A DNA stretch of 64,000 nucleotides from Sphingomonadales bacterium (lineage in GTDB: Bacteria > Pseudomonadota > Alphaproteobacteria > Sphingomonadales > Sphingomonadaceae): positions 33,030 through 97,029 of the forward strand of contig JAFKLT010000038.1 in NCBI GenBank assembly GCA_017309275.1. The letters run 5' to 3'. Of the stretch, positions 14,133 to 45,637 are shown one piece after another. A program made the translations under genes and the position numbers. Numbering within the stretch: position 1 is the stretch's first letter; every line of letters starts with the position of its first letter. A model generated the notes under the pieces. That model was given only the letters and a program-made list of their open reading frames with translations. It made no database searches and was not told the origin of the DNA.

Positions 14133-14151
14133 TGATGCACTATGTGCAACG
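14133..14151. promoter_or_regulatory. degenerate paired operator sites, CATTG-NN-CAATG class
   Basis: Two overlapping 12-base sites resemble the island-wide palindrome: TGATGCACTATG (14133-14144) and CTATGTGCAACG (14140-14151), matching 8 and 9 of 12 positions. They lie between the divergent CoA-transferase and EamA transporter genes. They are weaker than the sites at 26.4 and 45.6 kb. Confidence 0.4.
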
Positions 14152-14251
14152 CGATGACGCAGATCGGATCATGGTTCAAGCCAAATTTTGCGAGCCAGAA
14201 GAAGCGCAGGGCGGCGCACCAGATCGGCAAACTGACCAAAAGGGGCATCCA

Positions 14252-15220
14252 TTGACGCATCGATTTCCAATATTTCAGCGAGCCTGGGGTTCTGCTGGCT
14301 TATTGCTTTGTGCAGCCTCGCTTTTTTGGGCCCTCAACCCCATTGTTGCGCGCGCAGTTCACCACCTCGTTACCCCCCTCGGCATGGCCTTTTGGCGATG
14401 GGTCGTAGCAATGGGGGTAGGCTTACTTTTCGCTTGGCCGCATCTTGTCGCGGATCGTCGCGCAATTCTGCAGAATTGGAAAATGCTGTCGTTTCTCGGA
14501 ACGCTTGGGATCGGAGCGTTCGCCCTCGTGGTTTATTGGGGCCTTCAATATACAACGGCGACGAATAACCTGATGATGCAGGGCGCCATGCCTTCGATGA
14601 TACTCCTGCTTTCGACAGTGATCTTTCGAGACCGAATTACGATCGGTCAGTTGGCAGGCACGCTCGTATCACTGGCCGGTTTGCTCGTCATCGTCGCGCA
14701 AGGAAGCCTAGCCAATATTCTGGCCATGACGTTCAACCGCGGAGATGCCGCCGCCCTTTTCGGCGTTTTTCTCTACTCGCTCTACTCGACCCTTTTGCGG
14801 AAGAAACCCGCCATACATCAGCTCAGCTTTCTCGTAACGCTGTTCGCGGTCGGGGCCGCAAGCATTGCCATCCCGTATCTTCTGGAGATTGCGCACGGCC
14901 ATTATATGGCGGCGAGGATTGAGGTTCCGCTCGCCATCCTTTATGTCGGAATTTTCCCTTCGCTCCTTGCATATTTCTTTTTCAACCGTTCAGTGGATTT
15001 GATCGGTGTCGCTCGCGCGAGTATCTATATGAATCTGCCCCCAGTCTTTGGGGTTGCGCTTGCAATTCTCCTGCTTGGAGAACATCTCGCTCCCTTTCAC
15101 ATTGCGGGCGCGGCACTTGTCGGTGCAGGGGTGTTCATGGCGACACGCCGCGAGGACGAGCCGCCAGCAGCAGGCCGCGTCGAAACTGTGGCCGTCGAGG
15201 CTGCATCCTCGCCGCGCTAA
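14252..15220 (+). CDS. EamA/DMT-family transporter
   Basis: Inner-membrane drug/metabolite transporter with about ten hydrophobic helices in two repeats (for example LLLCAASLFWALNPIVARAV first, and FNRSVDLIGVARASIYMNLPP opening the last pair). The start at TTG 14252 has AAGGGG six bases upstream and gives 322 residues, normal for the family. An ATG at 14132 would add 40 hydrophilic residues overlapping a probable operator, so I treat that as untranslated leader. Substrate unknown; export or uptake of an aromatic acid or intermediate fits the location. Confidence 0.82.
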   Translation: MTHRFPIFQRAWGSAGLLLCAASLFWALNPIVARAVHHLVTPLGMAFWRWVVAMGVGLLFAWPHLVADRRAILQNWKMLSFLGTLGIGAFALVVYWGLQYTTATNNLMMQGAMPSMILLLSTVIFRDRITIGQLAGTLVSLAGLLVIVAQGSLANILAMTFNRGDAAALFGVFLYSLYSTLLRKKPAIHQLSFLVTLFAVGAASIAIPYLLEIAHGHYMAARIEVPLAILYVGIFPSLLAYFFFNRSVDLIGVARASIYMNLPPVFGVALAILLLGEHLAPFHIAGAALVGAGVFMATRREDEPPAAGRVETVAVEAASSPR

Positions 15221-15304
15221 TTTTCACGTTCGATTTGCCGGCGGACACTGGCACACGGCAGGAGAGCGGATACGCGCGAATGGCTGGCAACAGGGCGCAA
15301 TCTG

Positions 15305-15342
15305 CCATTGCATAGGAATGCCGCGCGGGCAGTTGCACAAGA
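15305..15342. promoter_or_regulatory. operator-like sites upstream of the IclR gene
   Basis: CCATTGCATAGG (15305-15316) and AGTTGCACAAGA (15331-15342, with core TTGCACAA exact) match the island palindrome in part. They sit 100-135 bases before the IclR regulator start, in a 219-base AT-richer spacer that otherwise shows no gene. This would be consistent with autoregulation. Confidence 0.4.
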
Positions 15343-15439: not shown

Positions 15440-16309
15440 TTGGAACGTCAGGCAAAAAGCGTGAGAGTGACAGAGCTTGAAGACGATCACTCCGATATGT
15501 CCGCCTCTTCCAAATCGCCGCGCGATGTTGCGCAAAAGCCTCGCAAGAGTATCCAGTCGGTAGAGACTGGGGTCCGCGTGCTCGAAGCGCTGATATCTTG
15601 TCCCGGCGGCTGCGCACCCCTTCGCGATATCGCCGCGGGAGCCGAGATGTCGCGCAGCCAGGCGCACCGATATCTCCAGGCCTACATTAATACTGGGCTG
15701 GTCCAGCAGGAGCCTGCGGACGGTCGCTATTCTCTCGGTCCAACCGCCCTCAAGATCGGACTCTCGGCCTTGTCGAGGCTCGACGTTATTCGCATCACCA
15801 CCGCCTATCTGCGGCAGCTTGCGGATGATCTCGAGACCACTGGTCTGCTCTCGATATGGGGTGACTATGGGCCGACGATCATCCGTTGGCTCGATGGCGG
15901 CGTTCCAATTGCGACGTCTTTGCACGTCGGATCGGTCCTTCCCATTCAGCATTCGTCTGCAGGGCTAGTTTTCATGGCTTTCCAGCCACTCCCTGCCTAT
16001 AAGCGGCTGCTTGAACGTGAGCGCGCTGCGCGGACGTCCATCGATGAAATCGAGCTGCAAGCTATGCTGACGGAGATCCGGAGGCAAGGCTACGCCAAGG
16101 TGGACGGCCAAGTGGTACCGGGGCTCGCTGCCATTTCAGTCCCGGTATTCGACATGCAGGAAAAGCTGATCGCGGTGATTGGCGTACTTGGCCGGATGAC
16201 CGACGAAAAATTCTTTTGCCAGAGCAATATCGACAAAGTCCAGGCCGCCGCTCTCAAAGCCAGCAACGCAATGGGCTGGCAGCCGGAGGAGATGCGTGGG
16301 GATTCCTGA
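15440..16309 (+). CDS. IclR-family transcriptional regulator
   Basis: A regulator of up to 289 residues. Seen: N-terminal winged helix (IQSVETGVRVLEAL, PLRDIAAGAEMSRSQAHRYL, GLVQQEPADGRYSLGP) at about 37-105 followed by the IclR effector domain (LETTGLLSIWGDYGPT, SVLPIQHSSAGLVFMAF, VPGLAAISVPVFD). The TTG start at 15440 is preceded by GGAAGAAG; GTG 15461 or ATG 15497 are alternatives that leave the domains intact. IclR factors commonly control aromatic catabolic operons, so it is a prime candidate for the regulator of this island. Confidence 0.87.
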   Translation: MERQAKSVRVTELEDDHSDMSASSKSPRDVAQKPRKSIQSVETGVRVLEALISCPGGCAPLRDIAAGAEMSRSQAHRYLQAYINTGLVQQEPADGRYSLGPTALKIGLSALSRLDVIRITTAYLRQLADDLETTGLLSIWGDYGPTIIRWLDGGVPIATSLHVGSVLPIQHSSAGLVFMAFQPLPAYKRLLERERAARTSIDEIELQAMLTEIRRQGYAKVDGQVVPGLAAISVPVFDMQEKLIAVIGVLGRMTDEKFFCQSNIDKVQAAALKASNAMGWQPEEMRGDS

Positions 16310-17245: not shown

Positions 17246-18715
17246 TCAGGCCGACAGAAAGAGGTTCGCGGGATCGAGCGCGCGTTTCACGCGCGCGTGC
17301 AGTTGAGTTATCGCGCCGCTTTCATAGGTCGCCCTAGCAGAGGCGGCGAGCGCCGGCTCGACGTGCGTCTGTCCAAATCCGGCACCTGCCTGCGCATCGA
17401 TCAGCTCGATAGCGCAGTCTCTCGCCCGTTTACTGCCCGCGGGACTGCCATCGAAGCACAAATACTGCCGATGCTGGGCAGAGCGCCAGACGGCATTCGT
17501 TTCTCCGACAAAATCGAAACCGTGCCGGCCGGAAATATCGCGCGACAAGTCATAAAGGCGAAGCCCTTCCTTGCCATCAACCGGGCTGATGGGGCCGATG
17601 TCGAGAGAGGATCCTCCGGCCCAGGCCGAAGGGCGGCCAAGTGCATTACCGACCGAACCAAGCATCATGCCTTTTCGCCACGCCCACAGTCCTTCCATCC
17701 CGGCTGCGGGAGCGGCCAGCACCCGCGAGCCTTTGATCGATGCGAACGCGTCCTGGACCATCGACCAAGCGATGCGAACATTGTCGGGGAGCCCGTAAAG
17801 CGAGCCGTAAAGAGTCCAGTAGCCAAGCCCGATCGACTCCCCGGCTTTTCGAACCTCGCCGGCGGACATTGGGCCGGTGCCGCCGAAGTCGCGGCGTACC
17901 TTGCCCGAACGCGCTGCTTCGTGCAGCGCATTTGCCACCGCCACGCCATTGGGGACGACCATATTGGTCTTGAGCGGGCCCAGTACATCGAGAAGTTTGC
18001 CAAGATCGTCTTCGTCCGGCACCGTGACAGCAAAGGATTGCGCTGCCGGGGGCTGGGGCATGAGCCAGAGGCCGAGCTTGGTCACGACGCCAAGATCGGA
18101 TTGTGTGAAGAGCCCGTCGATCCAGGGCCCGTAACCAAATTTGAAGAGCTGCCAGCAGGTACTCTTGGGCATAGCACCCATCCCTGTCCGGACACTGCGG
18201 CCGTCGGCCAGCATCAACTCAAGCCCGCATTGCATAAGATAATGATCGGCATATGGGGTATAGCCCACGCGCCGCTTCAGAAAGGCGCTCGCCACCGATT
18301 CGTCGGGCTCACCCGGGCAATCGACCCAGAGCTTGAGCCCCCGCTCGCCTATCTGTTCGGAGAGTTGCCGAAAGGTGACGCCTGGCTCGACGAGGCAGTA
18401 AGCCAAGTTCTCATTGATCTCGAGAATCTCATTCATGCGGCCAAGATCGAGCAATATGATCTTGTCGCGTGCCGCCACCTCCTGACCTGCGACCGCGCGG
18501 CACACAGGTTGAAGCGCCGCTCCGGCCTCGCTCGCCACCGCGAGGACCTTGGCAAGTTGCTCGGTGTCGCGCGGCGCGATGATACCCAGGGGCAGGGCGA
18601 CTCCGGAATGGAAGGGTGCGAGCGCCGCCGGATCGCGCGTTACCCCATCGGCACCGACCAGTGCTTCTAGCGCGTCGAGCGCGGCGGCTTGGCGATTTGC
18701 GTCCATCTTGATCAC
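17246..18715 (-). CDS. divergent VAO/4-cresol dehydrogenase-like flavoprotein
   Basis: A 489-residue member of the vanillyl-alcohol oxidase / PchF family, clearly homologous to the neighbour at 21927-23480 (shared segments such as NENLAYCLVEPGV, GYTPYADHYLMQCG, LFTQSDLGVVTKLGLWLMPQPP). However, the FAD pyrophosphate loop GTGRNFAYGG of the neighbour is replaced here by PVCRAVAGQEV (about 70-80), and the conserved G-x-MGNALEHG stretch by SVASAFLKRRV (about 141-150). The C-terminal MDQIAGTY-type segment is also changed. It may bind FAD differently or be a structural, non-catalytic partner. Only three bases separate it from the upstream zinc-ribbon gene. Confidence 0.8.
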   Translation of the reverse strand: MIKMDANRQAAALDALEALVGADGVTRDPAALAPFHSGVALPLGIIAPRDTEQLAKVLAVASEAGAALQPVCRAVAGQEVAARDKIILLDLGRMNEILEINENLAYCLVEPGVTFRQLSEQIGERGLKLWVDCPGEPDESVASAFLKRRVGYTPYADHYLMQCGLELMLADGRSVRTGMGAMPKSTCWQLFKFGYGPWIDGLFTQSDLGVVTKLGLWLMPQPPAAQSFAVTVPDEDDLGKLLDVLGPLKTNMVVPNGVAVANALHEAARSGKVRRDFGGTGPMSAGEVRKAGESIGLGYWTLYGSLYGLPDNVRIAWSMVQDAFASIKGSRVLAAPAAGMEGLWAWRKGMMLGSVGNALGRPSAWAGGSSLDIGPISPVDGKEGLRLYDLSRDISGRHGFDFVGETNAVWRSAQHRQYLCFDGSPAGSKRARDCAIELIDAQAGAGFGQTHVEPALAASARATYESGAITQLHARVKRALDPANLFLSA

Positions 18716-18718
18716 CCC

Positions 18719-18958
18719 CTATTTCCGCATGGTCGAAGGTTGCAGGACGATCGGAAAAAGATCCGGCTCCGAAACATCGATCGCGAACTCCTCGGCGCGC
18801 ACACGCGGGTCGATCGCACTCGCCGGCTCGCTGTCGCGCCAAGAGAAACAGCAGGCCGTGCAGCGATGGATTGTCCAAATCGTTTTCTCGCCATCGACGC
18901 CGCGGAAATCAGGGATCGAAGCGTCGGAGCCACATCGCGGGCAATGGGGTGCAGTCAT
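18719..18958 (-). CDS. hydroxyarylic acid decarboxylase subunit D (VdcD/BsdD-like)
   Basis: A 79-residue zinc-ribbon protein with Cys6-x2-Cys9 in HCPRCGSD and Cys33-x2-Cys36 in HRCTACCFSWR, followed by SEPASAIDPRVR. This matches the small D subunit of vanillate, 4-hydroxybenzoate and phenol-forming decarboxylases (VdcBCD, BsdBCD, ShdBCD), whose D protein supports subunit C by an unclear mechanism. It overlaps the UbiD-family C subunit gene by four bases, and the B subunit is encoded at 24049, so all three components are in one operon. The short length is normal for this family. Confidence 0.85.
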   Translation of the reverse strand: MTAPHCPRCGSDASIPDFRGVDGEKTIWTIHRCTACCFSWRDSEPASAIDPRVRAEEFAIDVSEPDLFPIVLQPSTMRK

Positions 18959-20433
18959 AGCGTCTCGCCTCGTTGCATCGCCTGGATCCGTTTGCCGAGG
19001 TCATCGATAGTCTGGCCGGTGGGCGGGGTGACCAGATGTGCCTCGCCCACCGGATCGGGCGGGAGATAGCTTGTTGCGTCGATAATCAGATGGTGCCCCT
19101 TCCCCGGCGTCACGGCAGCGGGGTCGATCGGGACCATCGCCATGTTCGGCAGGACGATGATGTCCTCCGCGCGCGTCCGGGTCGACAGGGCCCACATGAC
19201 CTGGTTGAGATCGAAGGGATCGATATCGCCATCGACCATGATCAGATTTTTCAGATACATGAGGCCATGGGGCGTACCAAGCGCGCGGAGCGCCACGGAT
19301 TTTGCGAAGCCCGCCATCCGGTTCTTGACCGCGATGATCGCTGTCAGTCCGTGCTGGTACAGCGCATTCACCGCGGTGACTTCGGGAAAGGTCTGGCGCA
19401 ACTGTGCATAGATGGGCGCCGACGTATGAAGACCGATCAACGTGTCGTGCTCCGTCCAGCCACGACCGATGTAGATATTCTCGAATATAGGGTTCTTTCG
19501 GTGCGAGACGGCGGTCACCTTGAAGACAGGGGCGCGTCGCACGCCGCTGTAGGATCCTGGGAATTCACCGAACGGCCCTTCGAAGACGCGCTCACCAAGC
19601 TGGAGCTCGGCTTCGATGACGATCTCGCTATCCGCGAGGATGTCGATACCGTTGCCGGAATTCGTCAGCCGGATCGGCGCTCCCATCATCGCCGAGGCAT
19701 AAGCATATTCGGACTCGTCGTAGCCGATTGGTGTTGCTGCGAACAACGCGACGCCGGGATGGTTGCCGAGCATGACGGCGATCTTGAGCGGCAGGCCTTC
19801 GCGTTCCGCTGCGAGGATCTGGCGTCCCATGTCATGCGACGGGATCGTCATCAGGCTGAAGCGATCGGGACCCTGGATCTGAAGCCTGTAGATGCCGACA
19901 TTCTGCTTGCCGAAATTTTCCGGATCCAACGGATCGCGCGAAGCCACCGACGCCTTGGCCAAATAGAAACCCCCGTCAAACTCGTTGATGCGATACACGG
20001 GCAGCAGGTCGTAGAGATTGATATTCTCCTCGTGCCGGCACTCATGGACAGGCGCCTGCCCCTCGGAAACGCGGCTGATCTGGGCAGAGGCATCGCCCCA
20101 GCGCCCGGCTATGTCGAAGAACATATCCCGGATTGTGGTGCCTTTTGGCTGACCCAGGAGCAGCGCGATATTATCCCAAGAGCCGTGCACCCCGACAACC
20201 GTGCGTTTCCCGGGGTAGCCCGCTATATTGTCGAACAGGATCGCAGGAGCATGGTTGACATCGCGCGAGGCGGCCACGGCAATGTTGCGCAGGTCGGGCT
20301 CGGGCATGATCCGGTCCGTCCAGGTAATGGCCTGCCCATATTCTTCGAGGAGCTCCAGAAAATCGCGCAGCGATCCGACGCCTCTTGCGCGATCGGCGAG
20401 GTTGGCGCGAATGGATGACTTTCCTTGAGACAT
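18955..20433 (-). CDS. UbiD-family hydroxyarylic acid decarboxylase, subunit C
   Basis: Prenylated-FMN-dependent non-oxidative decarboxylase of 492 residues, acting on 4-hydroxybenzoate-type acids (vanillate, 4-hydroxybenzoate) to give the phenol. Seen: LRDFLELLEEYGQ at the start, VHECRHEENINLYDLLP, the active-site stretch GPFGEFPGSYSG (about 300-311) and MWALSTRTRAEDI (about 414-426), all typical of UbiD. The start at 20433 is chosen because ATG overlaps the stop of the aldehyde dehydrogenase gene; the longer frame adds no domain. Together with subunits B and D it would remove the carboxyl group made by the dehydrogenases in the same operon. Confidence 0.9.
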   Translation of the reverse strand: MSQGKSSIRANLADRARGVGSLRDFLELLEEYGQAITWTDRIMPEPDLRNIAVAASRDVNHAPAILFDNIAGYPGKRTVVGVHGSWDNIALLLGQPKGTTIRDMFFDIAGRWGDASAQISRVSEGQAPVHECRHEENINLYDLLPVYRINEFDGGFYLAKASVASRDPLDPENFGKQNVGIYRLQIQGPDRFSLMTIPSHDMGRQILAAEREGLPLKIAVMLGNHPGVALFAATPIGYDESEYAYASAMMGAPIRLTNSGNGIDILADSEIVIEAELQLGERVFEGPFGEFPGSYSGVRRAPVFKVTAVSHRKNPIFENIYIGRGWTEHDTLIGLHTSAPIYAQLRQTFPEVTAVNALYQHGLTAIIAVKNRMAGFAKSVALRALGTPHGLMYLKNLIMVDGDIDPFDLNQVMWALSTRTRAEDIIVLPNMAMVPIDPAAVTPGKGHHLIIDATSYLPPDPVGEAHLVTPPTGQTIDDLGKRIQAMQRGETL

Positions 20434-21896
20434 CAGTGTGCTCCCCCAACGGCCGCGTCGGTCTGGATGCTCACCCATTTCCACTCGGTCATGATTTCAA
20501 GATCGGCCTCGGTGCCCTCGCGGCCAAATCCGGAAGCCTTGGAACCGCCGAACGGCACGTGAGGCTCGTCGTGCAACGTGGGCGCGTTGACATGGACCAT
20601 CCCGGACTCGATTTCGCGAGCGAACCGAAGCGCCTTGTCGATGTCGCGCGTGAAGATCGCGGCGCTCAGGCCATATTCGGTGTCGTTGGCAAGCCGGAGG
20701 GCTTCATCGAGGTCATCGAACGGATAGAGCGACGTGACCGGCCCGAAGGTTTCCTGGGCCGCTACCTCCATCCCGGGCTGGACACCGGAGAGGATGGTCG
20801 CATGGCACACATGGCCCGTCCATTCGCCCCCGGCGAGTATTTCGGCTCCCTTGCCGCGGGCGTCATCGATATGCTGCCGCACGCGCGCGCGCTGACGCCC
20901 GGAAATGATAGGACCCAGCATCGTTGCGGGATCGCGCAGATCGCCGGATGAGAGTTTCGCAGCTGCAGCAGCGAAAGCCTTGGAGAACCGGTCGAAGATC
21001 GGACGTTCGACATAGATACGCGACGCCCCCATGCACACCTGGCCCTGATACATGAAGATGCTGAAGATCGCGGCCGCCACGGCCTTTTCGATGTCGGCGT
21101 CGGCGCAGACGACGAGAGGACTCTTCCCGCCGAGTTCGAGGGTATATTTCTTGAAGCCTTCAGCTGCGATGCGCGCGATATGCCGCCCGACCCGGGACGA
21201 GCCCGTGAAGGTGATCGCGCGAACCTTGGGATGGCCAGTAAGCGCATCGCCGATTTTGGCGCCGTCCCCATATACAATGTTGAACAGGCCTTCGGGCACG
21301 CCTGCTTCCTCCCAGAGGCGCGCGAGTTGATCGGCCACGCGCGGTGCCGCTTCCGACGGAAGCAGGACGAAGGCATTGCCCGTCGCGAGCGCCATGGCCG
21401 ACTGCTTGATCCCCTTGATCAGCGGGACGTTGAACGGCGTAATGCCGGCAACGACTCCGACCGGTTCGCGAAAACTCATGCTGACGCGGCCGGGCGCATC
21501 GGATGGAATAGTCTCGCCGCGAATGCGCCGGGGAACGCCTGCGGCCGCGCGCAAGAAGCTCGTGGCGAACCGGGTCTCGAAACCGGCCTTTGCGATCGGC
21601 GAGCCGATTTCATCAACGAGCGTGTCGGCAAATTGCGATGCGTCACGCTCCATGAGAGCCGAAGCCTTTATCATCCATCCCTCGCGCGCGGCTGCGGAAA
21701 GGTCGCGGTTCCGGCGATAGGCCGTGTCGGCCGCCTCAACTGCTCGATCGACGTCGGCCGGAGTCCCGGCAGCCGCCCGGGAATAGAGACTGTCGTCAAT
21801 CGGGTTCAGGCTTTCGAAATAAGCGCCGTCGCCAGGGGCAACCGGTGACCCGCCGATCCAGTGGTCAAGCCCCCTCACTTCGTCCTTACGCATCAT
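20433..21896 (-). CDS. NAD(P)-dependent aromatic aldehyde dehydrogenase
   Basis: A 487-residue aldehyde dehydrogenase close to the vanillin/salicylaldehyde dehydrogenase group. Seen: GVVAGITPFNVPLIKG, catalytic Glu in LELGGKSPLVV and catalytic Cys in YQGQVCMGASR, and EEFGPV-type end motif AQETFGPVTSLYPF. The tandem ATG ATG start follows CAGGAG. Within the operon it would oxidise the aldehyde made by the PchF-like dehydrogenase to the benzoate-type acid for UbiD-type decarboxylation. It could also serve the NahE-like aldolase product (a salicylaldehyde). Confidence 0.9.
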   Translation of the reverse strand: MMRKDEVRGLDHWIGGSPVAPGDGAYFESLNPIDDSLYSRAAAGTPADVDRAVEAADTAYRRNRDLSAAAREGWMIKASALMERDASQFADTLVDEIGSPIAKAGFETRFATSFLRAAAGVPRRIRGETIPSDAPGRVSMSFREPVGVVAGITPFNVPLIKGIKQSAMALATGNAFVLLPSEAAPRVADQLARLWEEAGVPEGLFNIVYGDGAKIGDALTGHPKVRAITFTGSSRVGRHIARIAAEGFKKYTLELGGKSPLVVCADADIEKAVAAAIFSIFMYQGQVCMGASRIYVERPIFDRFSKAFAAAAAKLSSGDLRDPATMLGPIISGRQRARVRQHIDDARGKGAEILAGGEWTGHVCHATILSGVQPGMEVAAQETFGPVTSLYPFDDLDEALRLANDTEYGLSAAIFTRDIDKALRFAREIESGMVHVNAPTLHDEPHVPFGGSKASGFGREGTEADLEIMTEWKWVSIQTDAAVGGAH

Positions 21897-21926
21897 GAAT
21901 CTCCTGGGAGCGTGGGTCGCGTGGCA

Positions 21927-24672: not shown

Positions 24673-24769
24673 CGCCCCCGCCGGCGGAGGCCGCCTGTAT
24701 CCGGTCGATTCGGCACTAGCATAGCCCGCTCCCGATTTCCTATTTGGACACAGCATACAATCCGTTGCT

Positions 24770-25576: not shown

Positions 25577-25577
25577 G

Positions 25578-34177: not shown

Positions 34178-34182
34178 AGCGA

Positions 34183-37131: not shown

Positions 37132-37158
37132 CTCTTTATCCCTTTCCGGTTGATCGCC

Positions 37159-37968
37159 TCAGCTTGCAAACGCCGCTTTGACGGTCCCGACTCCATTGAT
37201 TCTGGCCTCGACGACGTCGCCGGCCGCGACGGTTGCCATGGGTCCGAGAGCGCCCGACAGAAGAACATCTCCGGCAAGAAGCGGACGGCCTTCGCGTGCC
37301 ATGACGCGCGCCAGCCACAAGGAGGCACTGATCGGGCTGCCAAGACAGGCGACGCCCGCGCCGACAGAAACAGGCTCGCCGCGGCATTCCATCACCATCC
37401 CGCACGCGCGTAGGTCGAGCCCGTCGAGCTTGCGCGGAACGGCGCCAAGCACGAACAGACCGCTCGAAGCATTATCGGCGATGGTGTCCAAGATCCGGAT
37501 GTCCCAATTGGCGATGCGGCTGTCCACGACCTCGATCGCGGGCACGACATATTCGACCGCCCGGATCAGTTCGGCGATCGTAAGGTCGGGCTGAAGGAGG
37601 TCGCGCCCGACCACGATCGCGATTTCCGCTTCGACCTTTGGCTGGATGACCCGCCCGAGCCCGATCGGCTCGCCCTCGGGCACATCCATATCAGCGAAGA
37701 GCATGCCATAGTCGGGCTGGTCCACGCCGAGCTGCTTCTGGACCGCCCGCGAGGTAAGCCCGATCTTGCGTCCGACGAGACGGCGCCCCGAGGAGAGTGC
37801 GTGGCGGGTGTTCAATTCCTGCACCGCATAGGCCGCCGCGACGCCACCGCCGCTGAGGCTTTCGCGAAGCGGGGGGATCGGCGAGCGCTTTTCGGCCGCC
37901 GTTCGCAGGGCGATCGCTGCTTCTTCAATGATGTCAGGGTCAAGTGTATTTTGTTCGGACATGATCAT
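37159..37968 (-). CDS. 2-hydroxypenta-2,4-dienoate hydratase
   Basis: FAH-fold hydratase of 269 residues (DmpE/MhpD type) producing 4-hydroxy-2-oxovalerate. Seen: [73 protein letters not shown]. The DNASS segment is the usual hydratase version. Start at 37968 overlaps the dehydrogenase stop (ATGA); a second ATG two codons on is an alternative. It unites hydrolytic and decarboxylating branches of the meta pathway. Confidence 0.93.
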   Translation of the reverse strand: MIMSEQNTLDPDIIEEAAIALRTAAEKRSPIPPLRESLSGGGVAAAYAVQELNTRHALSSGRRLVGRKIGLTSRAVQKQLGVDQPDYGMLFADMDVPEGEPIGLGRVIQPKVEAEIAIVVGRDLLQPDLTIAELIRAVEYVVPAIEVVDSRIANWDIRILDTIADNASSGLFVLGAVPRKLDGLDLRACGMVMECRGEPVSVGAGVACLGSPISASLWLARVMAREGRPLLAGDVLLSGALGPMATVAAGDVVEARINGVGTVKAAFAS

Positions 37969-39476
37969 ATCTTCACGCAGATGTTTTCGAGCTCGGTGTA
38001 GAATTCGAGGCTGTGCGCTCCGCCCTCGCGGCCTATTCCCGATTGCCCCGAACCGCCGAATGCCGTGCGCAGGTCGCGCAGGAACCAGCAGTTCACCCAG
38101 CACACGCCGACGGACATTGCCGCCGCGACGCGATGAGCTCGAGAGAGATTTTCTGTCCAGACGGTAGCGCACAGGCCATAATCCGTGTCGTTCGCCCAAC
38201 TTATCGCGTCGTCTTCGGTGTCGAAGGGAATGATCCCGCAGCAAGGACCGAAAATCTCCTCCCGCATGACGGTCGAATCATGAGCGAGGCCGGTCCAGAT
38301 TGTGGGTTCGACCCAGAACCCGCCCGCCGCCGCGGCATCGACGTTGGGTACCCCGCCGCCCGTAACGGCGATTGCCCCTTCGGCGATCGCCCGCTCATAA
38401 TATCCGAGCACTTTCTGCCGATGTTCTTCGCTGATCATCGGCCCGAGGTAATGCGGATCACCCTTGTTCCCGGGTTTCAGTGCGCGAGCGGCAGCGGCAA
38501 GCTTGGCTACGAAAGGTTCGAAGACGGATTGCTCGACATAGACACGCTCGGTCCCCAGGCACACTTGCCCGCTATTCAGAAAGGCGGCGCGCGAAATGCC
38601 TTCGGCTGCTTTCTCAAGATCGGCATCGGCGAAGACGATCGCTGGATTTTTGCCGCCGAGTTCGAAGCTGATGTCGCGAACGCCGACGGCAGCCTGCTTC
38701 ATTATGGCCTGCCCGGTGCCGGTTTCGCCTGTGAAGGTGATGGCATCGACGTCCGGATGGGCGGTGAGGAACTCGCCTGCTGCGCCGGGGCCGAAGCCGT
38801 GGACGACGTTGTAGACCCCCGTGGGCATTCCGACCGCGTCCATCACTTCGCCGAGAAGGGCTGCCGTCCGCGGCGTCTCTTCGGACGGCTTGACGATCAC
38901 GGTGTTCCCGCAGGCCAGCGCCGGGCCGACTTTCCAGGTCATCAGCAAGAGCGGGAAATTCCACGGGCAGACGACCGCGATGACACCCTTCGGTTTACGC
39001 ACAGCGTAATTGATCGCACCGCTCCCGTCAGGCGTCGGGGTACCGAACGATTCTGTCGGGAGGGTCGTGACGATGTCGGCGAACATCCGGAAGTTCGACG
39101 CGCCGCGCGGAACATCGATGTGCGCCGCGACCGCTCTCGGCTTGCCCGTATCGGCCACTTCTGCATCGAGAAAGTCTTCCGAGCGCCGTTCGATCTCATC
39201 CGCAACAGCAGCGATGAGCCGAATGCGCTCGGCTGTTGTCATTTTGCCCCAAGGTCCTGTGAGCGCACGCTTGGCCGCCGCTACAGCGCGATCCACATCC
39301 TCACGGGTCGCCTCATGAACGCGCCCCGTCTCCCGACCGGTGGCGGGGTCGATGTTGGGGAACGTCGCCCCCGAGCCGCCCTTTACGAACCGTCCGTCGA
39401 TAAAGTTCAAGATATCCGCAGCGACAGGTCGGTTTCTCTCTTCCGGTTCGACCGCAAGCTGTTGAACCTGTACCAT
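37965..39476 (-). CDS. 2-hydroxymuconic semialdehyde dehydrogenase
   Basis: DmpC/XylG-type aldehyde dehydrogenase of 503 residues that oxidises the catechol ring-fission product to 2-hydroxymuconate. Seen: VIAVVCPWNFPLLLMTWK, FELGGKNPAIVFAD, nucleophile in NSGQVCLGTERVY, and the family-specific end CWVNCWFLRDLRTAFGG, with SGIGREGGAHSLEFYTEL. It ends exactly where the hydratase begins and starts directly at the stop of the DUF336 gene, so translation is coupled. Confidence 0.94.
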   Translation of the reverse strand: MVQVQQLAVEPEERNRPVAADILNFIDGRFVKGGSGATFPNIDPATGRETGRVHEATREDVDRAVAAAKRALTGPWGKMTTAERIRLIAAVADEIERRSEDFLDAEVADTGKPRAVAAHIDVPRGASNFRMFADIVTTLPTESFGTPTPDGSGAINYAVRKPKGVIAVVCPWNFPLLLMTWKVGPALACGNTVIVKPSEETPRTAALLGEVMDAVGMPTGVYNVVHGFGPGAAGEFLTAHPDVDAITFTGETGTGQAIMKQAAVGVRDISFELGGKNPAIVFADADLEKAAEGISRAAFLNSGQVCLGTERVYVEQSVFEPFVAKLAAAARALKPGNKGDPHYLGPMISEEHRQKVLGYYERAIAEGAIAVTGGGVPNVDAAAAGGFWVEPTIWTGLAHDSTVMREEIFGPCCGIIPFDTEDDAISWANDTDYGLCATVWTENLSRAHRVAAAMSVGVCWVNCWFLRDLRTAFGGSGQSGIGREGGAHSLEFYTELENICVKI

Positions 39477-39902
39477 TCAGAACTCCTTCGCACCAATCGA
39501 GGCGGCGGCTGCCCGGGCGCAGGCGATGTCGAACTCCTCGGAGCCGCCCGAGACTCCAATTCCCCCGATGCAATTCCCATCGACTATGATCGGGACACCG
39601 CCGCCGAACATCACGACCCGCGGCTGATGCGCGATGCCGTTGCATAAGGCTTCGGAGCCCGAGACCAGTTCGTAGACCGCTGCCGTCGGCACTTTGAAAC
39701 TTGCGGCCGTGAAGGCTTTGTCCTGAGCGATCTTTTCGGAGTGAAAGGGAGCCGCGCCGCCTTTCAGGAACGCGACCAGTTCCCCCGACGCGCCCACGAC
39801 CGCAGCGACCACGGGCGTTCCGCCGGCGGTGCCATGCCCTACGGCAGCGGCGACCGCCTCCAAGGCGGACCCGTGTGCAATCGTGTGGTAGTTTTCGACC
39901 AT
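39477..39902 (-). CDS. GlcG/HbpS (DUF336) family protein, NahX-like
   Basis: A 141-residue protein of the heme-binding GlcG/HbpS family. Seen: VAAAVGHGTAGGTPVVAAVVGASGELVAFL, DKAFTAASFKVPTA, and VMFGGGVPIIVDGNCIGGIGVSGGSEEFD. Homologues such as NahX occur in meta-cleavage operons for naphthalene and phenol, but their task is not settled. The DUF336 fold can bind heme, corrinoid or flavin-like ligands, and protection or maturation of the iron dioxygenase next door is one guess. Confidence 0.85.
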   Translation of the reverse strand: MVENYHTIAHGSALEAVAAAVGHGTAGGTPVVAAVVGASGELVAFLKGGAAPFHSEKIAQDKAFTAASFKVPTAAVYELVSGSEALCNGIAHQPRVVMFGGGVPIIVDGNCIGGIGVSGGSEEFDIACARAAAASIGAKEF

Positions 39903-39911
39903 CGCAGGAAG

Positions 39912-40838
39912 TCAGGTATTGACGGTCATGAAGCGGTCGTTGAGCGCCTTTTCATAATAGAAAATCGCCTTGCCCGCCTGTTCGACGCCCCACGACCGGC
40001 GAGGATTATCGGGGTAATAATCATAACCGCCGGCAAAGGTCTCGTTCCGATTTCCCGAAGGGTCGAAGAAATATATGGTCTGACCACGCGTGATACCGTG
40101 GCGCGTCGGGCCGATATCGAGTGAGATATCATAGCGACTGATGATATCGGCAGCATTTCCGACGTCGTTCCAGGATTCCAGGCGGAACGATGTATGGTGG
40201 ATTTTCGCATCCTCGGGGCCTGCAAGGAACGCGATATCGTGAGCCTTATTGCTACAGCTCAGGAAGATGCCGAGCCGAGTGCCGCTCGCTTCGTCGACGA
40301 GTTCCTCGGTAACGGAAAAATCGAGCGCTTCGACGAAGATTCGCGCCGATCCCGCGACATCGATGCCGTTGAGCGCCGAGTGATCATATCGCATAGCGCG
40401 CATGCCGCGCGGCTCACTGTGCCAGACGTCCGGGTTCTTTGTGGGAGGACCGTCTGCCGATAATTCCATGTCGGCGTAAAGGTCGAAGATATGCCCGGTA
40501 GGAACCGCGAAGCGCAGCTTGCGTCCGACGCCCTCTTCCTCGCCCGCGGTGATCCATTCGACGTCGACGCCGGTGGCTTGCAAACGGTCTGCGAATATTT
40601 CGAGGTCGCTGTCGCGGCAAACCTTGAAGCCGATCCGATCAAGACCGGGCATATCCGCCTCGCGCAGGATGACGCTGTGTCGATCGAATTCGTCGAACCC
40701 GCGGAAAAATGCCCGGTCACCCGAACGACCGACGAGTTCCAGCCCGATCCGGTCGCGATAATGGGGGATGGCCTCCTCGAGATCGAGGACGCGCATCTGG
40801 ACAAAGCCTGGTCGCATCACGCCTGTAATTGCCATCAC
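39912..40838 (-). CDS. catechol 2,3-dioxygenase
   Basis: Extradiol dioxygenase of 308 residues (XylE/DmpB/NahH type, vicinal oxygen chelate fold) that opens catechol to 2-hydroxymuconic semialdehyde. The two-domain protein keeps the iron ligands at family positions: His153 (MRYDHSAL), His214 (AKIHHTSFRLE) and Glu266 (NRNETFAGGY). Length matches XylE (307). It sits beside the hydrolase and semialdehyde dehydrogenase in the operon, so both branches of the meta pathway are available. Confidence 0.94.
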   Translation of the reverse strand: MMAITGVMRPGFVQMRVLDLEEAIPHYRDRIGLELVGRSGDRAFFRGFDEFDRHSVILREADMPGLDRIGFKVCRDSDLEIFADRLQATGVDVEWITAGEEEGVGRKLRFAVPTGHIFDLYADMELSADGPPTKNPDVWHSEPRGMRAMRYDHSALNGIDVAGSARIFVEALDFSVTEELVDEASGTRLGIFLSCSNKAHDIAFLAGPEDAKIHHTSFRLESWNDVGNAADIISRYDISLDIGPTRHGITRGQTIYFFDPSGNRNETFAGGYDYYPDNPRRSWGVEQAGKAIFYYEKALNDRFMTVNT

Positions 40839-40854
40839 CGCTCTCCCGGGAAAT

Positions 40855-41703
40855 TTAAAATTTTAGGCCGTGACTGAAAAATTCGATCACGGCGCGATTG
40901 AAACTGGCCATCCGCTCGATCTGTACCCAATGGCCACACTCTCCAAAGAAGCGGACGTCTGAGTGTGTGATCAGGTTTCCGAGGCGCAGCGACACCTCTT
41001 GCGGAATGACTTGGTCGGCCTTGCCGTGCAGGACGAGCACTTCATGGGGAAGCGCGGCGATATCTTCCTCGCGGCTCGACAGCATAGCAATATTGGCCTG
41101 CCGGTCGGAACCGCCGAACGTCGCATGATAGGGCTCATGCGCTCCTGGGCGGATGCTCGCGTGATAACGGGAGTCGATCAGATCGTCGGTCAGCCGGCTC
41201 TGGTCCCATGCGAGCATCTTCAGCGACTCATGCATCATTTCGCGGGATGGCTCATAACCCCAGACGAAATCGAGCGCCGGCGTGAGCGGGAATTCAAGTC
41301 CAGCCGCTCCCATCAAAACGGCACGATCGACCCTGTCGGGATGGGCGATCATGAAGGCGAGCGTCACGCCGCCGCCGAAGGAATTTCCGACCATCGAGAC
41401 CTGGTCGATTTCCAGGTCGTCGAGAAGACGGACCAGTTGATTGGTCCAGATGGCCTTGTCGGTGATCCGACCCACCGAGTCGCTGTAGCCGAAGCCAATC
41501 ATGTCGGGAGCAATGACCCGGAATTCCTTAGCAATCTCGGGCATATTAAGCCGCCAGTTCGCCCATGCCGTGACCCCGGGGCCCGAACCGTGGACGAGGA
41601 GGACCGGCCTGCCCTCGCCGGTGTCATGATAGTTGGTTTTGATCCCGTCAGCGACGAATGTCTTGCCGATTTCGGGCCGGACCATGTCGGGCGCCGAACT
41701 CAT
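40855..41703 (-). CDS. 2-hydroxymuconic semialdehyde hydrolase
   Basis: DmpD/XylF-type C-C hydrolase of 282 residues that releases formate (or a larger acid) from the ring-fission product. Seen: LLVHGSGPGVTAWANW, nucleophile Ser108 in MVGNSFGGGVTLAF, acid in LHGKADQVIP and His in GECGHWVQIERM. First gene of the twelve-gene meta operon; an operator-like site lies about 110 bases upstream. It is distinct from the hydrolase at 26547, which pairs with HpaH and HpaI. Confidence 0.93.
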   Translation of the reverse strand: MSSAPDMVRPEIGKTFVADGIKTNYHDTGEGRPVLLVHGSGPGVTAWANWRLNMPEIAKEFRVIAPDMIGFGYSDSVGRITDKAIWTNQLVRLLDDLEIDQVSMVGNSFGGGVTLAFMIAHPDRVDRAVLMGAAGLEFPLTPALDFVWGYEPSREMMHESLKMLAWDQSRLTDDLIDSRYHASIRPGAHEPYHATFGGSDRQANIAMLSSREEDIAALPHEVLVLHGKADQVIPQEVSLRLGNLITHSDVRFFGECGHWVQIERMASFNRAVIEFFSHGLKF

Positions 41704-41814
41704 TGGCCAGCAACCATGTAATCATCATGTCGGGCGACCTGCCCCCAAACGGCTTCAAGCATCACTCAATCTCCGTTCCACGGGCCATCATGTCGCAGCC
41801 CTCTTGGGACAATG

Positions 41815-41826
41815 TTTTGCACCATG
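41815..41826. promoter_or_regulatory. operator-like site upstream of meta operon
   Basis: TTTTGCACCATG matches the island palindrome at 9 of 12 positions. It lies 112 bases before the hydrolase start that opens the meta operon, in the 170-base spacer behind the GST gene. This spacer contains no other visible feature. Confidence 0.35.
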
Positions 41827-41873
41827 GGAAACGCGTTTGCAACCGGTAAATGAAACCGGCGCCTCTGATCCGG

Positions 41874-42479
41874 TCACTTCAGGCTCTCGGCTCGCACGGC
41901 TTCGAGGACACCGGGCTCCTCTTCCATCCGGGCGCGGTAGCGCGTCAAAGCGGGGAAGCCCGCGAGACCGATCTCCACTCGAGAGGGCCACCCGAGGATG
42001 CAATAGAGATAGGCGTCGGCCACGGTGAAGGCGTCCCCGAAGCAATAATTCTTGTCGGTCAATTCCAGGTCGAGCGCTTGGAGATGGTGCATGACGTCCC
42101 GCTTTGCCTCAGCGCGGATCTCCGGCCCCGCGGTTTTGGAGAAGAGCGGCACGAAGCTCTTGTGCAGCTCGGAGGCGATGAAGCTCAGGCTGTCCGTCAG
42201 CGTGTAGCGAGCGATTGTTCCGGCCGGCGGGGCGAGCCCCGCGCGCGGTGCCAGGTCGGCAACATAGAGAAGGATCGCTATCGTCTCTGTGAGAAGCTCG
42301 CCCGAATCCAGAAGGAGAGCAGGGATTTTTCCCGAAGGCTTTATCGACCGGAAGTCGGCGCCATGCTCGGTTCTGCGCGTGGGCATGTCGACTTTTTCAA
42401 TATCGAACTCTGCCCCTATCCGGCGCAGCGCGATGTGCGGTGCCAGCGAGCAAAGGCCAGGCGCATAGTAAAGGAGCAT
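41874..42479 (-). CDS. glutathione S-transferase
   Basis: A 201-residue cytosolic GST. Seen: YYAPGLCSLAPHIALRR (N-terminal thioredoxin-like domain with a beta-class-like Cys), SGKIPALLLDSGELLTETIAIL glutathione-binding loop, and the C-terminal helical domain FTVADAYLYCILGW. GSTs of this kind (BphK-like) accompany biphenyl and PAH clusters in sphingomonads and may dehalogenate or detoxify reactive intermediates. It ends the operon alpha-beta-PdxA-GST. Confidence 0.88.
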   Translation of the reverse strand: MLLYYAPGLCSLAPHIALRRIGAEFDIEKVDMPTRRTEHGADFRSIKPSGKIPALLLDSGELLTETIAILLYVADLAPRAGLAPPAGTIARYTLTDSLSFIASELHKSFVPLFSKTAGPEIRAEAKRDVMHHLQALDLELTDKNYCFGDAFTVADAYLYCILGWPSRVEIGLAGFPALTRYRARMEEEPGVLEAVRAESLK

Positions 42480-42551
42480 CTCATATCCTTGTGGACGACT
42501 TGAGCACAGCGCGCGAATGGCCGTGCTTCACGCCGGAGTTGGGCCGGCGCG

Positions 42552-43574
42552 TCAGCGATCCACCTCGGAAAAGCCCTTTCCGGCGGTCAGCACCCCACAA
42601 GTCCGCATGGCACTCAGCATCATCGATGGATCGGCTTTGCCCGTTCCCACAATGTCATATGCCGTGCCGTGTGCGACCGACATATGGAGATAGGGTGGCC
42701 CCATCATGATCACGCAGTTTCCCGAGAATCCCCATGTCTTGACGGCTATGTGGCCTTGGTCGTGAAACATCGCTAGCACGAGATCGTATCGGCCTTCGAT
42801 ACATTGGCGAAAGACGGTATCGGGCGCGGATGGTCCATCGACATTGATGCCGCGCGCGCGCGCGCGCGCGACTCCAGGACCGATGGCACGATCTTCCTCA
42901 TCGCCGATGGCATGAGGATTGAGACCCGCGACCACGATCCTGGGGTTGGCGACGCCCCAGCTTCGAAGCGCCGCGTCGATTTGCTGTAGGGCGGTATCGA
43001 TCAACTCGGGCGTGATGAGGTCGCAGACCGCCCGAATCGACATATGATCGGTGAGGTGGGCGACACGGAGCGGTCCGGTGAGGAGGAGCAGATAACTCTC
43101 GCCCGGCGTCGGGCTGATCACCATATCCAGCTTTCCCGCCAGTTTAAGCGATCCGGTGCTGATCGGACCCATCACTGTGCCGGCGAAGACCCCGTCGCGC
43201 GCGAGCGCATCGAGTTCGGCTAGCCACTTGGCGGTCGCAATGCCCGATTCGAGCGTATCTTTCGCGAAGGGGAGCGCGCGGTCGTCCAGCGCACCTGTAT
43301 CCAGGATATCGATGACTGCCGGGTCGTCGCTGAGCGGCTCGAGCGAACGCATGACACGCAGGCGGGCCGACACTTTAGTCAGGTCAAGCGCTCGTTCGAC
43401 CGAGGCCGCCGACCCCACTAATAGGGGAACCGACACCTCATGCACGCGGCCTGACGCCCAGGCGCGAACGGTAACCTCGGGTCCGATGCCTGCCGGCTCG
43501 CCGACCATGGTACCGATGCAGGGCCGGAATCCGGCCTGCTGCGACGCTACGCCGACCTCAAATGCTGTAGACAT
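42552..43574 (-). CDS. PdxA/TphB-family dihydrodiol dehydrogenase (set 1)
   Basis: A 340-residue homologue of 4-hydroxythreonine-4-phosphate dehydrogenase. In terephthalate breakdown the relative TphB oxidises and decarboxylates the carboxylated cis-dihydrodiol. Seen: CIGTMVGEPAGIGPEVTVR, three metal-ligand histidines in LTDHMSIRAV, AGLNPHAIGDEE and LAMFHDQGHIAVKT. Its start overlaps the Rieske beta stop by 17 bases, so oxygenase and dehydrogenase are co-translated. The presence beside a Rieske oxygenase, rather than other pdx genes, argues for the TphB role. The gene contains a (CG)10 tract. Confidence 0.85.
   Translation of the reverse strand: MSTAFEVGVASQQAGFRPCIGTMVGEPAGIGPEVTVRAWASGRVHEVSVPLLVGSAASVERALDLTKVSARLRVMRSLEPLSDDPAVIDILDTGALDDRALPFAKDTLESGIATAKWLAELDALARDGVFAGTVMGPISTGSLKLAGKLDMVISPTPGESYLLLLTGPLRVAHLTDHMSIRAVCDLITPELIDTALQQIDAALRSWGVANPRIVVAGLNPHAIGDEEDRAIGPGVARARARGINVDGPSAPDTVFRQCIEGRYDLVLAMFHDQGHIAVKTWGFSGNCVIMMGPPYLHMSVAHGTAYDIVGTGKADPSMMLSAMRTCGVLTAGKGFSEVDR
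42851..42870. repeat. (CG)10 dinucleotide tract inside the PdxA-like gene
   Basis: Twenty bases of uninterrupted CG repeat encode alternating Ala-Arg codons at a surface region (GVARARARGIN). Slippage by one unit would shift the reading frame. Such tracts can also adopt left-handed DNA. It is intact and in frame in this sequence. Confidence 0.7.
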
Positions 43575-44052
43575 CGAGCATCGTCTGCGCGAGGTCGTTG
43601 ATGACGACGGTATATTTGCGTTTTATCACAAAGGCGTCGCCCATCGGTTCGAGATCGTAAATGGCCGACCCACTGTAGACCGTCGGCCGATCCTCCAAGA
43701 CCGAGGTCACCGACCAATTCGTCCGCGCCCGAATGACGTCGTCCTCATGGTCGACCGCGAGCAGGCAAAAGATATGGGAAGTGCGCGGGGCCGGCGAACT
43801 GGCCGACGACCGGCCCGTCCGAATGCGATAGACGCGGTCCTCGAGCCCTGCCCGGGTCGGATAATAGATCAGCGAAATCTCGCGCCTTGGGTCCTCGGTC
43901 AATCGGCCGCTGTCATCCCACGCGGGGACCCAATATTCGGCATCGGGATGATATAGATCGATCCAGCTATCCCAATCCTTGGCATCGAGAGCGGCCGCTT
44001 CGCGCCCGAGAAATCGCTGGATCGCGGTCCATTGCGCAACTTCGCTGCTCAT
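43558..44052 (-). CDS. Rieske ring-hydroxylating oxygenase, beta subunit (set 2)
   Basis: Small NTF2-like subunit of 164 residues, BenB/XylY-like. Seen: FLGREAAALDAKDWDSWIDLYHPDAEYWVPAWD near the start, SLIYYPTRAGLEDRVYRI and the terminal RKYTVVINDLAQTMLDVYSI, a pattern shared with benzoate and toluate dioxygenase beta subunits. Start at 44052 (MSSEVAQW) overlaps the alpha stop by four bases; the upstream open frame lies within alpha. Confidence 0.88.
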   Translation of the reverse strand: MSSEVAQWTAIQRFLGREAAALDAKDWDSWIDLYHPDAEYWVPAWDDSGRLTEDPRREISLIYYPTRAGLEDRVYRIRTGRSSASSPAPRTSHIFCLLAVDHEDDVIRARTNWSVTSVLEDRPTVYSGSAIYDLEPMGDAFVIKRKYTVVINDLAQTMLDVYSI

Positions 44053-45461
44053 TTCGCCATCTCCGGCTTCGGGGGTAACGCGCGCTCGGCCTCTTCGCTC
44101 GCAATGGCTCCGCGCATGCGCAATATCCATTCGTCGTGGATCGCGACGTAAAGCCCCTCGTCGGCCACCGCCGTGCCGCTAAGGATGGCGTCGACGCCCA
44201 GGGCTTCGCCGTGGCTGCTGACGCCTTGCACCCACCGTGTCGATCCCCGCGACATGTCGTTCATCCGGCCAGCCCCGCCACCGAAACCGACCTGGCAATT
44301 GTTGAACTCGGTCAGGTCGTCCGGCGTAGCCATGCCGCTTGCATTGAAGAAATCTTCATACTGGCGGATGCGCAAGGCGCGGGCGTCGTCACTCTCACCC
44401 ACCGGAGCTATGCAGTAGGTTGTCACCTCGGTCTCATCCACCGAGATGGGCCGGATGATACGGATCTGGGTGCTCGTCTGGTCCATGAGGAAGACGTTAG
44501 GGAACAGCTCCAGATTGCGTATCCGGCCGTTCATCCAGGTAGCGCGCTCTTCGCCGCGCTCGCGCTTCAACCAGTCCAGGATTTCGTAATTCGGCCGGTC
44601 CTGATAGTTTGCATAGTCATTCCAGAGCACGCAATGGCCGTTGTCGAAGGAGAAAGAGCCGCCCTCGAGCTGAGCCCAGCGACCGAAATCGAACGCCCTG
44701 GTATCGTTCTTCGATGTCCCGTCGACCCGGCGTGCGACCGTCATGAAGTAATTCGCGTGCACCGTGCCGATATGATAGCCGTCGAGGCCATTTTCGACCT
44801 GCAGCTTCCAGTTCCCTCGATAGCGGTAGCGCGTAGCGCCTGGAAGAACTTCGAGCTTCTCTTCGACCGACTGATCAACCATGAGATCGATGAATGTCTT
44901 CGCGCCCGCGAGATAGTCCTCAAGAGGAACGACCTCGGGGTTGAGACTGGCGAAAATGAAGCCCCGGTAAATCTCGATGCGCGCAACATGTTCTAGACCA
45001 TAGTCTTCCCGCTTGAAGCCCGGCGCGTAGCCACCCCCAGCCTCATCTGTCACGTCGAGGAGTTGGCCCGCGGGATTATAGGTCCAACCGTGGAAGGGGC
45101 AGGTGAAGTTGCGGCGGTTTCCGCTCTTCTCGCGGCAAACGCGCGCGCCGCGGTGCGCGCAGGCATTGATCAGACAATGCAATTCCCCGGCCCGGTCGCG
45201 GGTCAGGATGACGGGCTGGCGGCCGATAAAAGTCGTGAGAAAGTCGTTCGGCTTTGCGACCTGGCTCTCGTGCGCAATGAAGACCCAGTTGCGCTCGAAG
45301 ATATATTTCAGCTCGAGAGCGAACACGTCCGCGTCGGTAAAGGCCTCCCGGTCGATCTGAAAGCGGCCGCTTCCCTCGTCTTTTACGAGCCATGCATCGA
45401 TACGCGAACGCAGTGATTCAAGCTCTGCCACGGCTGCGCCGTTTCCGTCAGGTTGCAACAT
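44049..45461 (-). CDS. benzoate-type Rieske oxygenase, alpha subunit (set 2)
   Basis: BenA/XylX-like catalytic subunit of 470 residues. Seen: WVFIAHESQVAKPNDFLTTFIGRQP, Rieske ligands CAHRGAR and CPFHGWTY, mononuclear iron motif VENGLDGYHIGTVH and NLELFPNVFLMDQTSTQIR. The ATG at 45461 is preceded by GGAGGAG and is preferred over a TTG at 45500. No BenC-type reductase accompanies it, unlike standard ben operons, and the next functional gene is PdxA-like instead of BenD. Substrate is probably a benzoate or a carboxylated aromatic. Confidence 0.9.
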   Translation of the reverse strand: MLQPDGNGAAVAELESLRSRIDAWLVKDEGSGRFQIDREAFTDADVFALELKYIFERNWVFIAHESQVAKPNDFLTTFIGRQPVILTRDRAGELHCLINACAHRGARVCREKSGNRRNFTCPFHGWTYNPAGQLLDVTDEAGGGYAPGFKREDYGLEHVARIEIYRGFIFASLNPEVVPLEDYLAGAKTFIDLMVDQSVEEKLEVLPGATRYRYRGNWKLQVENGLDGYHIGTVHANYFMTVARRVDGTSKNDTRAFDFGRWAQLEGGSFSFDNGHCVLWNDYANYQDRPNYEILDWLKRERGEERATWMNGRIRNLELFPNVFLMDQTSTQIRIIRPISVDETEVTTYCIAPVGESDDARALRIRQYEDFFNASGMATPDDLTEFNNCQVGFGGGAGRMNDMSRGSTRWVQGVSSHGEALGVDAILSGTAVADEGLYVAIHDEWILRMRGAIASEEAERALPPKPEMAK

Positions 45462-45577
45462 CCTCTCCTCCATTTCCGGCCACCGAGATTCGTAGGTCAA
45501 CTATTTGGATCAACGATTCTCGGCTCAACTCTTTGGACTCTTCCGATCCCGAATGACCCAACATAGCATGCGTGGCT

Positions 45578-45637
45578 CATTGTGCAATGGGTTGCACAAT
45601 GATCTAAATTGCCCTATTCGAATCGCGTTGCATCATG
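45578..45637. promoter_or_regulatory. triple operator cluster between oxygenase alpha and extradiol genes
   Basis: CATTGTGCAATG (45578-45589, perfect) is followed without spacing by GGTTGCACAATG (45590-45601, 10 of 12) and then CGTTGCATCATG (45626-45637, 9 of 12). The sites lie between divergent operons, about 120 bases from one start and 70-130 from the other. Tandem sites suggest cooperative binding by the island regulator. Confidence 0.7.

Follow-up and report, generated by a model that had tools for sequence, protein, structure and literature searches.

The closest described counterpart of the system considered here is PheR of Sphingobium sp. SHPJ-2, an IclR-type repressor with phenanthrene as its effector, whose 44-bp footprint at phnA1 spans -21 to +23 and contains the core GCAACG (PMC13273656). 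Residues R63, R73 and R78 of PheR are critical, and genes for the degradation of benzoate and xylene rose when pheR was deleted; it is for PheR only that others have demonstrated binding, repression and phenanthrene-triggered release (PMC13273656). The only further experimental data that our literature search returned for this regulator group is a DNA affinity purification sequencing (DAP-seq) table, which lists 10 peaks, without positions, for SARO_RS17250 (Saro_3889) of Novosphingobium aromaticivorans plasmid pNL1 (PMC12352068). How the scattered aromatic-degradation operons of sphingomonads are coordinated is a standing question. Their regulation was described as "quite complex" in a 2014 paper, according to which several degrading strains carry a truncated or disrupted version of ahdR, the presumed regulator gene (PMC4048848); the cited part of another DAP-seq study reports that LigR binding was not detected at the xyl promoter (PMC12710314). 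The DNA analysed here is a 64,000-nucleotide stretch of a Sphingomonadales genome (assembly GCA_017309275.1, contig JAFKLT010000038.1, positions 33,030 to 97,029), referred to as the window. It carries a bph/xyl/nah-type aromatic-degradation island of the kind found on the sphingomonad plasmids pNL1, pLA1, KK22 p1, ES2-1 p4 and SJTF8 pF2 (Pfam and plasmid comparison). Six promoter regions of this island share a family of sites that probably, at roughly 80%, form a PheR-type IclR regulon, with the sites as operators of the island's own IclR protein, a predicted PheR-type repressor (Table 1). No paper on this multi-promoter operator family was found in the literature search, which was thin on subscription journals.

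The site family is restricted to promoters. Position matrices were trained on the intergenic regions of 11 plasmid stretches (70 regions, 10,250 bases), with the window excluded, relatives down-weighted and the L028/L029 overlap duplicate dropped; three matrices were scanned on the window and two were re-scored on the final gene map, to which small genes had been added after the first counts. With the first matrix, matches of at least 12 bits lay at 10 of the 2,557 intergenic positions and at none of the 50,840 coding ones. Its ten best matches were all intergenic, and 6 of the 22 intergenic regions had sites (mean of 0.19 and largest value of 2 in 300 shuffles); the second found 5 of 22 regions plus one coding match, which was among its ten best (17917, 13.6 bits), and the first nine matches of the third were intergenic. 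The six supported regions are CoA-transferase/EamA, ubiX, hpaH/hydrolase, nahE/SDR (short-chain dehydrogenase/reductase), xylF and xylX/bphC, that is, six of the seven that had been proposed. Of two divergent promoters said to bear symmetric sites, hpaH/hydrolase does so, at 41 and 47 bases from the start codons chosen here, whereas at nahE/SDR only the nahE-side site is supported.

Simple string counts tell part of this story. The three perfect copies of CATTGNNCAATG at 26420, 26488 and 45578 are indeed unusual (0.16 expected; none of 100 shuffles reached three), and three of the six perfect copies in the organism's own genome (5.1 Mb, 121 contigs) lie inside the window, while the reversed control pattern gave none. 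The other three, on the 5' side of a polyhydroxybutyrate (PHB)-depolymerase-like gene and inside a T2SSE-type ATPase gene and an alkylsulfatase gene, stand in stretches of 6.1, 3.8 and 9.4 bits, respectively, and do not look like members of the operator family. The claim that close variants occur only in promoters holds as an intergenic enrichment at up to two mismatches (7 hits at 3,380 intergenic positions and 15 at 50,008 coding ones, on the first gene map), but not as an excess over the whole window, where 22 such variants compare with 26.1 expected and 81 of 100 shuffles reach 22. Among the loose copies, those at 30273 and 30314 are not kept in H050, one of the two diverged Sphingopyxis islands compared here (H050 and HIX). 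GTGCAANNNNTTGCAC as a string alone is not enriched in the genome, since at up to one mismatch it occurs at 5 places compared with 7 for its reversed control, with the sole perfect copy at 45582.

The motif unit also differs from the CATTG/CAATG palindrome first proposed. H050 retains the core GTGCAA-N4-TTGCAC with altered CATTG/CAATG arms, and in the xylX/bphC promoter alignment the conserved block is GTGCAATGGGTTGCAC, with differing outer CATTG and CAATG arms; because the arms change while the block stays, the 12-mer is best seen as part of a larger operator. The training consensus, GTT...CATTGTGcAATGCgTT.C, can be read by eye as three boxes of alternating direction, GTTGCAC, GTGCAAY and GTTGCAC, although several single sites have only two clear boxes. 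Each site would then consist of two or three GTTGCAC/GTGCAAC boxes (GTTGCAC-ATN-GTGCAAY-RC-GTTGCAC), of which the 12-base palindrome would be one stretch. Suvorova and Gelfand (2021, PMC8222616) predicted three-box sites with alternating direction in 32 orthologous IclR groups. The TphR site given there, TTGCGC-ATA-GCGCAA, resembles TTGCAC-ATA-GTGCAT of site A as a similar inverted pair. By contrast, the window boxes read GTTGCAC and not GKTYCRY as in IclR group 1 (PMC8222616); the exact group 1 consensus, GKTYCRYW3-4RYGRAMC, is not matched, GTTGCAC-ATA-GTGCA being one base different per half by eye.

The sites are conserved in relatives. In H050 and HIX (loci L044 and L046 plus further stretches), 22 of 25 compared proteins are 69-92% identical to those of the window, with lower values for glutathione S-transferase (GST, 64%), a TIGR02444 protein (52%) and GntR (33%). 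The best sites of both islands lie in the same six promoter regions, and promoter alignments show the sites as conserved blocks amid poorly conserved sequence. Site E falls in a stretch conserved in both, D1 has counterparts in pNL1 and KK22, and GTGCAA-N4-TTGCAC of site G1 (24.1 bits at 45572 on the plus strand, 12.9 at 45584 on the minus strand) is present in all seven sequences compared. The ubiX, hpaH, nahE, xylF and xylX/bphC promoters of the related plasmids have the same boxes as the window.

Some of these features could also be expected of a core-promoter element, with TTGCAC serving as a -35 box common to the operons and no operator involved. Site C is overlapped by the promoter-like hexamers TTGCAC-N16-TATGCT, with a TTGC-N16-TATGNT-like pair in six of six sequences, and, reading towards xylX, a TA-starting hexamer lies 16-17 bases downstream of the right-hand TTGCAC half (by eye). 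We nevertheless consider this explanation very unlikely: the conserved stretch is longer than a -35 element and includes another box in inverted orientation, a site of this kind is protected by PheR (PMC13273656), and the intergenic regions at 49-64 kb and 1-10.6 kb were without the motif in the matrix scan. From 49 kb on, where the sequence-only reading had likewise seen no sites, the best score is 7.7. The spacing of 16-17 bases between the TTGCAC/TTGC halves at xylX and ubiX and the TA hexamers suggests an overlap of the boxes with the -35 element, where a bound repressor would block polymerase.

A link to an IclR repressor comes from pNL1. The PheR footprint is 100% identical there (71980-72023), between a ring-hydroxylating oxygenase gene and a drug/metabolite transporter (DMT) gene, and the genes from this oxygenase gene to the IclR gene SARO_RS17250 follow the order given in the PheR report, in which 12 genes precede pheR (PMC13273656). 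With matrices trained without the phnA1-type promoter, no other site in 20 kb scored above the footprint (17.1 and 14.4 bits). A matrix made without pNL1, ES2-1 and SJTF8, whose training set included the corresponding pLA1 promoter and the window itself, found eight pNL1 promoter regions of at least 16 bits in 182 kb and 0 of 165,298 coding positions, with the footprint third; from a second seed, the same scan gave seven regions, with the footprint fourth. The sites could in principle belong to a different, unlinked regulator, for example of the MarR type, that governs the island, as pNL1 has other regulators, such as a MarR gene, and IclR ownership in the window is read from sequence. This appears improbable, since the same sites surround the PheR-like IclR gene on conjugative plasmids and on chromosomes of several genera and the PheR footprint lies on one of these plasmids. 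On pNL1 (NC_009426.1), a 23.8-bit site at 6050-6073 stands upstream of a ferredoxin reductase gene and just downstream of a sigma-54 regulator gene; unlike pNL1, the window has no site before its ferredoxin reductase gene.

The window IclR protein has the expected domains (HTH_IclR, E 2.9e-11; IclR_C, E 6.5e-21) and is the only match in its own genome at E 1e-30 or better. Over the aligned part, its identity is 48% to the pNL1 relative and 53% to the pLA1 relative, and SARO_RS17250, the positional counterpart of pheR, is 46-48% identical to it. The PheR residues R63, R73, R78, Q75, H77 and Q91 correspond to R55, R65, R70, Q67, H69 and Q83 of the window protein and are invariant in six of six aligned proteins, whereas H61, which is without effect on PheR binding, is replaced by proline. 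This numbering was carried over via the pNL1 protein, which fits all seven residue numbers named for PheR (PMC13273656). IclR homologs of at least 46% identity occur on exactly the seven plasmid records that have an xylX-like oxygenase at 60-80%, the next plasmid matches being at most 45%, and in all seven the gene is linked to the sphingomonad aromatic cluster. The window protein resembles PheR in adjoining such a cluster, in its binding residues and in that the PheR footprint fits the site matrices. It differs from PheR in that no phnA1-type promoter was seen and no autoregulatory site was found in the window, and in that six promoter regions are predicted, compared with one promoter mapped in the cited part of the PheR report (PMC13273656).

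The sequence-only reading had named one regulator, either GntR or IclR; a single regulator on many promoters is well supported and IclR is favoured, whereas GntR is not. The FadR-type GntR protein (12131-12796), at the integrase end, sits at the island edge and is of the FCD type (Pfam), a family that often binds short palindromes. It is nonetheless a very poor candidate. No tblastn relative (E 1e-3) was found in 14 site-bearing plasmid stretches, which include 182 of the 184 kb of pNL1; direct comparison with one pNL1 FCD protein gave E 0.001 over 45 residues, and among the best 20 of 649 records its plasmid relatives are at most 41% identical. H050 and HIX keep the sites, although only a 33% GntR relative, on the opposite strand, was found there. 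The GntR promoter itself has no site (best score -0.6), and in the flanks of the closest GntR relatives (49-54%) the maximum is 11.6 bits for the first matrix and 14.5 bits for the second, whose coding maximum in the window is 13.6. The TetR protein (53407-54108) is 75% conserved in H050 and HIX, but as it has no site near its own gene and no tblastn relative in the 14 plasmid stretches, it can hardly be taken seriously as the owner.

Ownership by the IclR protein is also consistent with the surroundings of its relatives. Among 44 loci with a PheR-like IclR gene (flanks up to 10 kb), sites of at least 20 bits occur in 30, including loci of Hoeflea, Henriciella and Hyphomonas, compared with a shuffled maximum of 18.1 bits (220 shuffles). 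The identical IclR protein occurs in six of the 44, all Sphingopyxis, and CoA-transferase, hpaH and TIGR02444 genes lie near the IclR gene in many. At nine more distant IclR loci (31-42% identity), the best sites score 3.2 to 19.2 bits; given the upper values, a few of these may share the motif. In one of these genomes, the 19.2-bit site (L018, 1349-1372) stands just upstream of the distant IclR gene (42%), so this kind of operator may also occur outside the PheR group.

We infer that the window protein binds these sites and represses from them. Without inducer, IclR dimers or tetramers would occupy boxes over the -35/-10 region at the six promoters, blocking RNA polymerase until an aromatic effector, putatively a substrate or intermediate, freed the repressor; upper-pathway, meta-cleavage, side-chain and transport genes would then be switched on together.

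Several points weigh against IclR ownership or against the site set. The iclR promoter (15221-15460), the seventh region originally proposed, has no supported site: it scores 8.4 bits, below the coding maximum of 9.1 (6.9 with the second matrix), compared with 20.5 in pNL1, and its TTGCACAAG is not kept in H050. Identity to the plasmid proteins is only 45-53%, and IclR relatives can change their motif. Among the eight sites, the PheR core GCAACG is found in only C and G2, with A having it at its edge. The second matrix gives site A 10.3 bits, below its own coding match at 17917, and the first gives a 13.6-bit match inside xylX in H050 and HIX. Single shuffled intergenic sequences scored up to 22.4 bits in 300 rounds, so one lone site proves little. 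Fourteen of the 44 loci stay below 20 bits, ten at 12-19 bits and four without any match of at least 12 (L043, L063, L070 and L079); of these, L043 (Sphingopyxis H073) encodes the identical IclR protein but has a rearranged flank that lacks the stretch with GntR and the greater part of the CoA-transferase and EamA genes. The motif-search seeds came from the original finding and from sites already seen. A soft expectation-maximization search with free site rate fell into low-information motifs, and a fixed-number search with six seeds was used instead. Four family seeds gave motifs of 17.8 to 20.8 bits of information, one of them, TGCAAATGCG, in another register, whereas GGGAGAG and GAGGGCGGC gave 10.9 and 12.1 bits. 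In a k-mer list (intergenic versus coding) drawn up without any seed, the family k-mers TTTGCAAAT, GTGCAATA, CGTTGCAC and AATGCGTT rank near the top, alongside strings of the ribosome-binding-site type and a handful of further k-mers that include GAGGGCGGC; shared ancestry inflates these counts. Finally, common descent has left many plasmid sites almost identical, and the seven plasmid records represent about five distinct lineages, so counts of plasmid sites and records overstate the independent evidence.

A broader view is possible, though we hold it only tentatively, at slightly less than an even chance: one mobile family of IclR-type repressors might govern the aromatic clusters dispersed among sphingomonads and certain other alphaproteobacteria through its own IclR operator class, phased GTTGCAC boxes read by a tetramer, with a regulon of six promoter regions in the window and of eight on pNL1, a plasmid for which the sigma-54 regulator BphR had been suggested as controller. 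The defined operator and promoter list turn the question of how the scattered operons are coordinated into a testable regulon and provide a direct prediction for the existing DAP-seq data set (GEO GSE291618).

Table 1. Predicted operator sites and predicted regulon of the island (window coordinates; bits refer to the first matrix unless stated; the last row refers to pNL1)
Feature	Position	Strand	Remarks
Predicted site A, between divergent CoA-transferase and EamA-transporter genes	14127..14150	-	20.5 bits; 10.3 with second matrix; GATGCACTATGTGCAA identical in H050
Predicted site C, upstream of ubiX-ubiD operon	24757..24780	-	13.3 bits; conserved in H050
Predicted site D1, hpaH side	26414..26437	-	23.2 bits; holds perfect copy 26420-26431; conserved in H050, HIX
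Predicted site D2, hydrolase side	26475..26498	-	14.1 bits; most of perfect copy 26488-26499; CATTGTGCAA kept in H050, HIX
Predicted site E, between nahE-like aldolase and SDR (BenD-like) genes	30205..30228	+	27.3 bits, highest in window
Predicted site F, upstream of xylF-xylE meta-cleavage operon	41809..41832	-	21.3 bits; conserved in H050; similar in four plasmids
Predicted site G1, between xylX-like oxygenase and bphC genes	45572..45607	.	CATTGTGCAATGGGTTGCACAATG at 45578-45601
Predicted site G2	45620..45643	-	16.1 bits; has PheR core GCAACG; partly conserved in H050
IclR-family regulator	15461..16309	+	Pfam HTH_IclR, IclR_C; 45-53% identity to related-plasmid IclR proteins
CoA-transferase family III, predicted target	12871..14076	-	Pfam
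EamA transporter, predicted target	14258..15220	+	Pfam; start set downstream of site A; pNL1 DMT transporter alignment begins at 14270
ubiX-FAD-Aldedh-ubiD operon, predicted target	17246..24680	-	Pfam; similar order in pNL1
hpaI-like aldolase and hpaH-like hydratase, predicted target	24806..26378	-	Pfam; pNL1 annotation
Alpha/beta hydrolase, predicted target	26547..27413	+	Pfam
Ring-hydroxylating oxygenase subunits and nahE-like aldolase, predicted target	27482..30167	-	Pfam; pNL1, pLA1 annotation
SDR (BenD-like), possible target	30338..31123	+	Pfam
Meta-cleavage operon, xylF to ferredoxin reductase, predicted target	31135..41703	-	Pfam; xyl part in same order in pNL1
xylX-like oxygenase, PdxA, GST operon, predicted target	41874..45500	-	Pfam
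bphC, ferredoxin, oxygenase, isomerase operon, predicted target	45709..49343	+	Pfam; ferredoxin by tblastn
Eight predicted regions on pNL1	3823, 6050, 27045, 32530, 42760, 53771, 58854, 71996		

A strong site lies at or close to the promoter of the plasmid-type IclR genes themselves (pNL1 58854-58877, and, near 9824-9886, several loci of Novosphingobium and Sphingobium among L061-L081), but none was found there in Sphingopyxis, which suggests that autoregulation was lost or gained between the two. At the island edge, a tyrosine integrase gene followed by the GntR gene (10638-12796) adjoins a TrmB-type methyltransferase gene; with regard to the island ends, no tRNA was found in the window and no direct repeat at 10300-10700. 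Outside the island, 1525-2115 has a Pfam match to the C-terminal domain of the type VI secretion system (T6SS) immunity protein Tdi1.

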